From: Polyangiaceae bacterium
GTDB lineage: Bacteria > Myxococcota_A > Polyangia > Polyangiales > Polyangiaceae
Length of the DNA stretch: 64,000 nucleotides
Assembly (NCBI GenBank): GCA_025353725.1
Contig: JANXOF010000023.1
Span: 248,001-312,000 of the forward strand
Direction of reading: 5' to 3'
Positions 10,815-15,132 of the stretch are shown piece by piece. Each line of letters opens with the position of its first letter. Positions within the stretch are counted from its first letter, which is position 1. The position numbers were made by a program, and so were the translations under genes. The notes beneath the pieces were generated by a model. The model made no database searches and was not told the origin of the DNA. It saw only the letters and a program-made list of their open reading frames with translations.

Positions 10815-11428
10815 TCACTCGAGCCCGAAAACGTAGTTGTGGCCGCCGAGCGAGTCAAAGTCGCGACAGTGCTTGCTGTCGCGCGCTTGGAACCAAAGTT
10901 CGAGGTGGTGAGCCTTCGGGTCGACCGGCACGGGGAACGTCGACACCGCTCCGTACACGCTGTTGTACGAGCGCGACGTCCACGCGCCGGCATCGAATCG
11001 CCAAAAAGCCTCCACGATGTGCTCCCCCTCTTGGCCGGAAGCATAGCAACCGGGGACTCGGCGACCGTCATAGGTCACATGGACGATGCCACCCGAAGGA
11101 AGCGCCGAAGCCACGACCGGCGCGCTGCCGCGGGTGCCGTCAAAAATTTCAGCTCCGCGCGCACGTCCTTGGGCGTCACGGGGGAGAAACCGCAAAGACT
11201 TGAAAGATTGTCCAAGTGATATCTAATTTGGACGTCGGTTTCCGTCGTGATTGCGCCTCCGCTTACGTCGAGAGTCCGAAAATCACGGAGCGGGGTGAGC
11301 ATCACCGACCGTTGGATCGTCAGCGAGCTTTCCGTGGAGACTGAGGAGTCGGCCTCGAAGGCGCAGCCGCTTGCAAGGGCGAGCGTAGTAAGTAGGAGGG
11401 ACCATCGGCGAAACGGTGAGGTACGCAT
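10815..11428 (-). pseudogene. Frameshifted lipoprotein gene (DUF6209-like)
   Basis: Two overlapping frames look like halves of one protein. The upstream half (ATG at 11428) has a lipoprotein signal (ALASGCAF) and a strand pattern ending DVQIRYHLDNLSSLCGF. The downstream half, in the -1 frame, reads IFDGTRGSAPVV, then VHVTYDGRRVPGCYASG and finishes HLELWFQARDSKHC...NYVFGLE at 10815. Joined around 11150, near an AAATTTTT run, they make a single 200-residue exported protein. The tail pattern (ordered strands, a Cys pair, LELWF) resembles DUF6209. Beyond the run the upstream frame becomes Arg-rich noise, which favours a genuine single-base loss or sequencing error over two genes. The -1 direction equals one missing base. 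Confidence 0.6.
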
Positions 11429-11625
11429 GGGAGTGGGTGCAGCACTCACCCTTTTCGCGGCTGTCGCGTGGACGCCAAAGGCTATGTCGCTGCCGTCAGT
11501 ACGGCGCTACATACCCTATCGCCTCTGCATGAAAGGCGTAGCTTAGCGGCGGCACAAAAGATGACGTCGGCACGACAGCCATGGCGCGGTCACGAAGGTA
11601 AGCGGTTTAGGCAAAAGGATTTCCA

Positions 11626-12505
11626 ATGACCAACGCTTCTAAAGCCGCTCTTTTAACCGTCGTCGCCGCAGTGTCGGCTTGCGACTCAGACAGCGTGCAT
11701 GTCGAGAGCCCGGCGCGCGTCGTCGGAGCCTCGGCTTCTCGAACGTCGACGGCCGCACCGGGATGGCGCGCGCAGGTTCTTTACCTCGTCATGACCGACA
11801 GATTCCGCAACGGCGACCTGGAAAACGACGACGCAGGGTCTCCGGGGTGCCATGACGCAGACGACCCTCAGCAATTTCACGGCGGCGATCTCGAAGGCCT
11901 TCGGCAGAACTTAGACTACGTGCGCGAGGTCGGAGCTACCGCGATTTGGGTAACGCCTACCTATCGCCCAATTGGACGCCTACCTAACCATCGTTGCGGG
12001 TACCATGGCTATTGGGCGGATAACGTCGAACCCTACGACGATGCGCTCGAGCCGAAGCTCGGCACTCCCGCGGACCTTACGCGACTGATTGCCGATATGC
12101 ACGGCGGCGGGATGCGATTCATCCTCGACATGGTCGTCAACCACACCGGTGACATCGCGCGCTTACCGAGGCAGAAACCCGACTGGTTTCATGACCCCCG
12201 GTCGTGCGGTGCTCTCGGTGATGCGACCGTTTACTGTCCGCTCGACGCGCACCCGGATTTCAAGCAAGAGCGCGCAGACACGGCTGCGTACCTCTCTGAC
12301 GTCGCGGCGCGATGGGCATCGAAGTACGCTCTCGACGGGATTCGTATGGATACCGCCAAACATGTCCCAAAATCCTATTTCACGTCGAGCTTCTTACCTG
12401 CCGTGAGAGGCATTCGACCACCCCTTTTTACGGTAGCCGAAGCGTTTGACGAGGGGTCGATCGATCCTGGAGCTCGATACGTCGACGCGGGGTTTGATCA
12501 GCTCG
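11626..12505 (+). pseudogene. Truncated GH13 alpha-amylase-type lipoprotein
   Basis: Starts with an ATG after an AAAGGA ribosome site and a lipoprotein signal (AAVSAC). GH13 landmarks follow in order: YLVMTDRFRNGDLENDD, GATAIWVTPTY, region I DMVVNH (about residue 168), region II DGIRMDTAKH with the nucleophile Asp (about 241) and region III TVAEAFDE (acid/base Glu about 272). The resemblance stops at VDAGFDQL, near 12500; region IV, with the third catalytic Asp, is absent. The frame stays open to 13119 but that sequence is the antisense of an AraC-type gene, not amylase. The product cannot be an active amylase. Secreted starch or maltodextrin hydrolysis would have been the ancestral role. Confidence 0.8.
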
Positions 12506-12960
12506 TTGACCCAAGTCGTACGCACCATGAATTGCACGTCGGTGACGTAGCGTTCGAACCGAGTCATGCGGATTTCGCAGCCGTACATCTGGACCACAGC
12601 CGCTCGAAGAAGAGGCGTCACCGAAAGCATCATCGTCTGCGTCACCGGGCTCTTCGCGCGCACGGTGGCTCGCCTGCCGGCGGGGATGAGCACCCAAGAA
12701 GCCCTATCGACCAGGTGCCGTTCGGCTCCAACTTGGACCTCGGCGAGACCGGCGTGGACAGGAAGCAAAAGCGTCGGCGTCTTGGCTTCGACAAAGACGC
12801 GGGCGACGGGTTCGCCGCAACTCTGTACGAGAAGCCGGATACCCATCGCACCACTCGGGTCGTCGATGGGAGAGGTCGCCTCCGCGCACGTCTTAGTGCC
12901 GCGCGCACCGCGCAGATCGTCGATCCGAACGTCGCCAAACCCATCACGCTCGGCCCTCAT
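12497..12960 (-). pseudogene. 3'-truncated AraC-type regulator (ligand-binding half only)
   Basis: The minus frame contains an AraC-type N-terminal cupin domain: EAKTPTLLLPVHAGLAEV, VDRASWVLIPAGRRATVRAK, then SVTPLLRAAVVQMYG and FMVRTTWVNEL. This order is typical of a proteobacterial AraC subfamily in which the two helix-turn-helix motifs follow about 60 residues later. Here the similarity breaks at WVNEL (about 12500) and the remaining frame (to 12394) is the antisense of the amylase, so the DNA-binding domain is missing. ATGs at 12960 or 12846 are possible starts. The two truncated genes were convergent, so one deletion (or a misassembly) explains both losses. Confidence 0.65.
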
Positions 12961-13051
12961 GGAAGGAATCAGCGTACCACCGAACGTTCGTTTCAACGCG
13001 ATACGCCATCCGTCCGAGAGCCTTGGTTCCGGCACGGGGATGAGTTACGGC

Positions 13052-13783
13052 ATGTACGAAATGCACATCTTCGGCAGCTCGAAAGGTCCGTCGGCTCCGG
13101 CCGGTGCCACGCAAAATGAAAGCGGCGCACGCGCGCAAGGAACAGGTGGGCTCCCGTCCATCACGGAGCGCGAGTTCGAACAGGAGGTCTTGCTATCGGA
13201 ACTTCCGGTGCTCGTCGCGTTCGTGCGGGCGGCTTCTGCGGCATGTAAGTCGATGGAGCCCGAGCTCGTCGCTTTCGCAAAGGGAGTAGAAGGCAAAGCT
13301 AAGGTGATGCAAGTCGATATCGACAAGTCTCCCACGCTTGCGCGACAACTCCGTCTCCAGCAGGTGCCGACGTTTATGGTGTTTGCCGACCAAAAGCTCG
13401 GCGATGCGCAGGTTGGACCTCTCTCGAAGAAACAGCTCGCCGCGATGGTGGAACCGTTTTTGCCGCGTCAGGAGGGAGCGCTCAAGCCGCGCGAACTCGC
13501 AGAGCTCATCAAGCAGGGGGTCGTCATCGCTGTCGACGTCCGAGACGCTTCCGCTTTTGGTCGCGCCCATCTTCCGAAGGCAAAGAGCCTGCCGTTCGAG
13601 GAAATAGAGACGCGCCTCGCTGAACTCTTCATGATGCCAGGTCAACCGGTCCTGTACGACCGCGCCGGTGAGAAGGCCAAGGGGCTGGTTGAGGCCGTCG
13701 GAGGCGCCGACGCGCCACTCGCATTTCTCGAAGGCGGGATTCTCGCGTGGGAAGCCGAGGGGCTTCCCATCGAGCGAGGCTAA
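13052..13783 (+). CDS. Thioredoxin-rhodanese fusion with degenerate active sites
   Basis: 243 aa. The frame is open far upstream, but only from about 13052 does it read like protein; a GGGGATGAG stretch ahead makes that ATG the best start (13040 and 13061 are alternatives). Residues 35-138 are a thioredoxin fold (LPVLVAFVRA, VDIDKSPTLARQL, cis-proline VPTFMVF) and 145-243 a rhodanese fold (VDVRDASAFGRAHLPKA, FLEGGILAWEAEGLPI). The thioredoxin WCGPC motif is replaced by ASAAC, leaving one Cys (about 65, the only Cys in the protein). The rhodanese catalytic Cys position (LYxxxG) holds Asp, in LYDRAG (about 203). Redox and sulfurtransferase chemistry are therefore unlikely; a binding or glutathione-type role is possible. 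Divergent from the AraC remnant. Confidence 0.8.
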   Translation: MYEMHIFGSSKGPSAPAGATQNESGARAQGTGGLPSITEREFEQEVLLSELPVLVAFVRAASAACKSMEPELVAFAKGVEGKAKVMQVDIDKSPTLARQLRLQQVPTFMVFADQKLGDAQVGPLSKKQLAAMVEPFLPRQEGALKPRELAELIKQGVVIAVDVRDASAFGRAHLPKAKSLPFEEIETRLAELFMMPGQPVLYDRAGEKAKGLVEAVGGADAPLAFLEGGILAWEAEGLPIERG

Positions 13784-14577: not shown

Positions 14578-15132
14578 ATGCCGCGCGAGGAACTCGTGAA
14601 GGCAAAATTTGCGCCCGCTACAGCGTCTGGCACTTCGGGTGCGCATGGGTCGGAAGCAAGCTTTGACCACTTTCGTGCGATGTTAGCGACGCATATGGAG
14701 CGGCGCGGGCTCCGGTCGACGGACCAACGCAAGCTCATCATCGAAACATTTTTCAAATCCCCAAACCACATCAGCATCGAGGAGCTCCTGGCCCAGGTCA
14801 GGCAAGAAGACGCGAAGATTGGCTACGCCACCGTCTATCGAACGCTCAAGCTACTCTCGGAGTGCGGCGTGGCCTTCGAGCGAAAATTCGGCGACGGACT
14901 TACGCGCTACGAGCTCGCCGACGAGTCCTCGCACCACGACCATCTCATCTGCACCTCGTGTGCGACGATCATTGAGTTTGAGGAGCCCCAAATCGAGGAG
15001 CTTCAGGAGAAGGTGGCATCGCGCCACGGGTTCCAGCTCTTAAGCCACAAGCACGAAATGTACGGAACGTGCGGCGCATGCCTCGCGAAAGGTCACGGCC
15101 ACGCCCAGATTGCCCGGCGCACGGGGAACTGA
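14578..15132 (+). CDS. Fur-family metal-responsive regulator
   Basis: 184 aa. An N-terminal extension of about 30 residues precedes the winged-helix domain (MERRGLRSTDQRKLIIETFF, then ISIEELLAQV and GYATVYRTLKLL with the recognition helix). The C-terminal dimerisation domain shows the HHDHLICTSC motif and a second CxxC (GTCGAC), the structural zinc site of Fur proteins, and FEEPQIEELQEKVA. Fur, Zur and PerR cannot be separated here; the HHDHLIC spacing and E...H residues are compatible with Fur. ATG at 14578 without a strong ribosome site; ATG at about 14677 is an alternative start that would remove the extension. Confidence 0.92.
   Translation: MPREELVKAKFAPATASGTSGAHGSEASFDHFRAMLATHMERRGLRSTDQRKLIIETFFKSPNHISIEELLAQVRQEDAKIGYATVYRTLKLLSECGVAFERKFGDGLTRYELADESSHHDHLICTSCATIIEFEEPQIEELQEKVASRHGFQLLSHKHEMYGTCGACLAKGHGHAQIARRTGN

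Follow-up and report, generated by a model that had tools for sequence, protein, structure and literature searches.

The 5' parts of two convergent genes, one encoding a GH13 alpha-amylase and the other an AraC-type regulator, meet at a single point in the window (i.e., the whole stretch of 64,000 nucleotides that was analysed, positions 248001–312000 of contig C98), and these two pseudogenes were probably left by one ordinary deletion of approx. 1.2 kb across the convergent pair. Both genes are truncated at this one point, the tail-to-tail order of the pair was found in one relative, and the 3' parts of the genes were not found in the assembly; from these observations we infer that a single event took place, its size and mechanism, and the presence of the junction in the living cell. 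The genome comprises 6.62 Mb in 98 contigs, with a completeness of 97.55% and an estimated contamination of 3.43%. Relatives were searched in 183 genomes of the order, using cut-offs of E <= 1e-38 for the amylase and E <= 1e-8 for the AraC-type protein. The alignments include 12 relatives of the amylase subfamily plus one more distant GH13 protein (from genome G011), and seven relatives of the AraC-type protein; an AraC relative with 25% identity (from G018) was left out.

Table 1. Location of the gene fragments, their junction and adjoining features in the window
Feature	Position	Strand	Basis
GH13 alpha-amylase gene, 5' part	11626–12498	+	homology to relatives, PF00128
AraC-type regulator gene, 5' part (N-terminal half, ends VNEL)	12499–12960	-	homology to longer relatives
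Junction, breakpoint most likely 12498/12499	12496–12510		protein and DNA homology ends
Amylase frame continued past the junction, antisense to AraC and into the next gene	12499–13119	+	open frame; no evidence for a gene
Thioredoxin-rhodanese gene, downstream, outside the scar	13040–13783	+	adjoins the Fur gene in same-genus stretches

The two gene fragments and their junction

The region 11626–12510 is homologous to the catalytic domain of alpha-amylases (PF00128, E 1.9e-29, with the best stretch covering positions 2–95 of the 446 in the profile), and its best match among solved structures is the Anoxybacillus alpha-amylase 5a2b (E 1.3e-42). The best match in another genome reaches E 9.3e-135, far beyond chance, and the relatives with long open frames show 50% (G035, 561 codons) and 68% (G053) identity. 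By eye, the start of the protein is lipoprotein-like (...VSAC). The fragment carries the motifs DMVVNH, GIRMD with Asp242 and VAEAF with Glu272 (positions counted on the fragment), which we take to be regions I, II and III of GH13; Asp242 would presumably be the nucleophile and Glu272 the acid/base. The third catalytic Asp of GH13 enzymes is located on strand beta 7. The homology runs normally from 11626 to approx. 12498 and ends in GFD, in line with an earlier note on this DNA, which described a GH13 enzyme intact up to region III and stopping at GFDQL; the codons that follow do not fit the family, and the homology stops before the NHD motif that is present in G053 and G035, leaving the catalytic triad incomplete. 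With 5a2b the fragment shares regions I–III and the N-terminal portion of its catalytic domain, whereas region IV and everything beyond it, including the C-terminal end, are absent. Since catalytic region IV is missing, the remnant, without the final catalytic Asp and the end of the barrel, is almost certainly dead, judging from its sequence. The GH13 catalytic triad is described in the Sandaracinus amylolyticus genome paper (PMC5010890).

On the opposite strand, the homology to AraC-type proteins runs normally from 12960 to 12499 and departs after NEL, ahead of the helix-turn-helix (HTH) domain. The fragment shows 63% identity to its relative in G053 (residues 22–154, E 8.4e-52, far beyond chance) and 38% to the one in G037. 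No family match above the cut-off was obtained with Pfam (the one weak match was PF00408, E 0.047), and none with NCBIfam; therefore, its identity as an AraC-type protein comes from the longer relatives that match it, of which that of G037 carries HTH_18. The N-terminal half is common to the fragment and to the regulators on contigs C192 of G053 and C6 of G037; in contrast, the HTH half is missing, and no match to HTH_18 or HTH_AraC was detected in the fragment, in agreement with the earlier description of a protein without its DNA-binding domain. Given this loss, the remnant is almost certainly dead and would be unable to bind DNA.

The two homologies, which are independent, stop almost at the same place, a few bases apart. 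At the DNA level, the alignment with the G053 amylase gene ends at 12497 and that with the G053 AraC gene starts at 12500, opening with 14 identical bases; from these limits, the breakpoint is placed within a few bases of 12498/12499, which sharpens the earlier location of both lost gene ends at about 12,500.

Two open frames run across this point: the amylase frame stays open from 11626 to 13119 (497 aa), and the AraC frame continues to 12394, antisense to the amylase, as a 213-aa frame. The open amylase frame could be read as a new functional fusion gene; nevertheless, the amylase read-through spans 206 codons, and of 14 genes picked in the window, 6 carry an antisense open frame at least as long, from which it follows that such read-throughs are ordinary for this DNA. 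Moreover, the last part of the amylase fold would be missing, and no relative of the added tail came up in the searches made for the other parts. A functional fusion was therefore rejected as extremely improbable. The practical consequence is correct annotation, i.e., the name amylase should be withheld from the 497-aa frame, and the name regulator from the 213-aa frame; beyond this, the importance of the junction is small.

Ancestral arrangement and the missing sequence

Only one genome, G053, which belongs to the same family, is close to both genes, with protein identities of 68% for the amylase and 63% for the AraC-type protein. Its contig C192 (3223 bp) contains the 3' end of an amylase gene on the plus strand, with the stop codon at 377–379, and the orthologous AraC gene on the minus strand, as an open frame from 389 to 1312 with the stop codon at 386–388; the two are thus tail to tail, with 6 bp separating their stop codons. 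The 5' part of the G053 amylase is located at the edge of a different contig, C553, so that neighbours in this order and orientation were met in one genome, with the amylase split over two contigs. Both pieces probably belong to one gene, because the gap between them, approx. 22–27 residues, fits the full-length relatives, and because G053 has a single amylase of this subfamily at E <= 1e-38. The C192 end piece scores 47–72 bits with 11 orthologues (53 or more in 10 of them) and, in a comparison by a different program, as much as 52 bits with the remaining GH13 loci; the two ranges overlap, so that these scores contribute little to linking the pieces, which makes the deletion slightly less probable and an assembly error slightly more so. 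Apart from the pair itself, no convincing neighbours shared by the G053 contigs and the window were found (one weak match, E 4e-4), and the synonymous distance to G053 is near saturation, with dS values of 1.4 and 2.1.

In 11 full-length amylase relatives, GFD is followed by 247–255 residues, and in the AraC-type protein of G053, NEL is followed by 155 residues; together with the 6 bp, these lengths give an expected loss of 1218–1242 bp. It is proposed that an ancestral tail-to-tail pair, formed by the gene of a GH13 amylase and that of an AraC-type regulator, which maybe controlled starch genes, would have lost one internal segment, comprising the last approx. 250 codons of the amylase, a few intergenic bases and the last approx. 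155 codons of the AraC gene, and that illegitimate (RecA-independent) recombination would then have sealed the ends with little microhomology, if any. The single deletion across a convergent pair put forward in the earlier note thus receives backing from the arrangement on C192, i.e., from one genome in which the linkage is partly deduced.

The 3' parts were also sought elsewhere in the assembly, where such searches are blind to any DNA absent from it. The amylase C-terminus of G035 gave a best match with 39% identity (E 7.8e-10) and the AraC C-terminus of G037 one with 35% (E 5.3e-10), the amylase end of G053 reached E 0.04 at best, and the whole AraC-type protein of G053 recovered the window fragment (E 1.3e-50) followed by a match at 3.2e-5. 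These matches to the missing halves are distant paralogues alone, almost every one of them within a long open frame; the AraC-type paralogue match on C15 sits in a 116-aa frame. Hence intact copies of either gene elsewhere in the assembly, for which the earlier note had asked that the lost parts be searched, were discarded. A scan of genome contigs gave 19 loci with 24–34% identity, and a phage search gave 41 records, every one below 60% identity; neither led further. Starch use need not be lost, since the genome keeps other amylase-like proteins, the N-terminal part giving five additional hits with E <= 0.001.

Explanations for the junction

The main competitor of a true deletion is a local assembly error, in which the assembler would have dropped approx. 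1.2 kb while both genes are intact in the cell. Neither fragment contains a stop or frameshift, even though 122 of the 3996 possible single changes would create a stop; from this it follows that the event was fairly recent or that it is an assembly error, and that fewer than approx. 0.07 neutral changes per site have accumulated since the event (an upper bound at the 95% level). The division into 98 contigs, the contamination estimate, another sharp gene end in contig C17 and the apparent frameshift in the neighbouring DUF6209 gene likewise speak for an error. Against it, no repeat that could mislead an assembler was found: the 16-mer at 12496–12511 occurs exactly once in the 6.6 Mb assembly (two further copies carry one mismatch), and no 14-mer or longer from 12441–12560 recurs in C98 or C17. 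In addition, C98 and C17 contain no runs of N, the pieces that meet here lie side by side in G053, and the dropped sequence was nowhere recovered on its own, although it could be absent from the assembly. Altogether, an assembly error is considered unlikely. A chimera of unrelated pieces, produced by contamination or by a misjoin of distant loci, is very improbable; the contamination estimate would allow it, but the joined points are approx. 1.2 kb apart in the ancestral order and orientation, as expected for one deletion and not for a random chimera. The G053 arrangement argues strongly against such an origin, which was rejected on these grounds, and the GC content by codon position is also similar on both sides (0.66/0.49/0.66 versus 0.68/0.49/0.73).

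Within the deletion reading, a particular variant was suggested in the earlier note, namely that each gene carried a GATCAGCTCG-like copy and that the deletion took place between the two. The longest stretch that both homologies could share is the 15 bp GATCAGCTCGTTGAC (12496–12510), which loosely fits the ends of both protein homologies. Here the window amylase reads GFD-QLVD-P. GFD is present in 10 of the 12 relatives, and Leu at codon 5 (6/12) and Asp at codon 7 (8/12) would also be compatible with an amylase origin; on the other hand, Gln at codon 4 and Val at codon 6 are found in none of the 12, codon 6 encoding Phe in 11 and Leu in one, and codon 8, Pro in the window, encodes Phe in all 12. 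On the AraC side, the window reads ELI-Lys-Pro, and in the seven relatives the residue after E[LI] is Ala (5) or Val (2) and the next one His (5) or Gln (2), so that Ile after E[LI] occurs in none. As the residues encoded by CAG and GTT (amylase) and ATC (AraC) occur in no relative, a long microhomology is unsupported; in this comparison the diagnostic codons appear in 0/12 amylases and 0/7 AraC genes, with the closest relative just 63–68% identical. The suggested microhomology thus finds no support in the relatives, and a deletion between such copies is regarded as doubtful. In the simplest assignment of the codons, CAG and GTT would derive from the AraC gene, whereas GAT would be of amylase origin, and the two ends may have shared a stretch of 0 to approx. 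6 bp. No longer repeat at the junction was found within the window.

A deletion such as the one of approx. 1.2 kb proposed here has parallels in other bacteria. In Streptococcus agalactiae (PMC3637634), deletions of such kind are reported as part of reductive evolution; of 193 indels larger than 4 nt, 70% were located at repeats with a median of 8 nt, and RecA-independent recombination was held responsible for most indels. As in the pseudogenes of that study, a gene would have been lost here by deletion between two nearby points; in contrast to those deletions, which were mostly at repeats, the junction in the window shows no clear repeat, which is a mild misfit.

The pair in other genomes and the surrounding genes

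At the cut-offs used, an amylase of the window kind is present in 11 of the 183 genomes and the AraC-type protein in 5, with the genome studied here counted in each case. Neither gene is present in any of 11 genus-mates at these cut-offs, from which it is suggested that the pair may have been acquired by transfer and broken later; the listed genus-mate genomes range from 4.2 to 11.9 Mb, some are incomplete, and 9 of the 11 are larger than the 6.6 Mb of the genome studied here.

Outside the window, a GH13 amylase lies nearby in 6 of 7 AraC loci (AraC relatives L122, L124, L125, L126, L130 and L134), and when G053 is set aside, an amylase is within approx. 8 kb in 5 of 6, the exception being G037, where none was found in 13 kb; in these counts the G119 locus (L130) was chosen for its amylase and is thus non-independent, and the G018 locus was left out. 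The two genes are divergent at four loci (two in G120, one each in G119 and G175), approx. 0.7 to 7 kb apart, and in tandem in G011, where the amylase is a more distant GH13 protein. Seven further amylase loci (G104, G058, G181, G035, C10 of G119, G177 and G114) showed no AraC match in the stretch read. The association is therefore frequent, not universal, and the tail-to-tail order occurs in one genome. Given the nearby GH13 amylases in 6 of 7 loci, these AraC relatives are candidate regulators of starch genes.

Next to the amylase, a gene for a DUF6209 lipoprotein-like protein (10818–11449, minus strand) is seemingly split over two frames, the second part alone matching PF19714; the frameshift has either made it a pseudogene or stems from a sequencing indel. 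Elsewhere in the window, the segment 5697–8835 has a second copy on C17 (11444–14589, L096) with 77.6% DNA identity, which includes a LysR gene (86% aa identity), a gene of unknown function (62%) and the first 262 residues of PEP carboxylase (92%), inside which the copy stops abruptly. Either this stretch was partially duplicated and the copy carries a deletion scar of its own, or C17 stems from a sister species. A doubtful reading is that this lineage, with its genome smaller than those of most genus-mates, is actively losing genes through non-homologous deletions; the junction, the cut PEP carboxylase copy on C17 and the frameshifted DUF6209 gene would then be recent scars of this process. 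An attempt to relate PEP carboxylase to the junction region by synteny led nowhere: in G005 this gene and the thioredoxin-rhodanese gene are on different contigs, and G008 and G010 gave no PEP carboxylase match. Downstream of the junction, the DUF2383 gene that separates the thioredoxin-rhodanese gene from the Fur gene (14578–15132) had no match in the same-genus stretches of G005, G008 and G010, and in all three of them the thioredoxin-rhodanese and Fur genes are adjacent.
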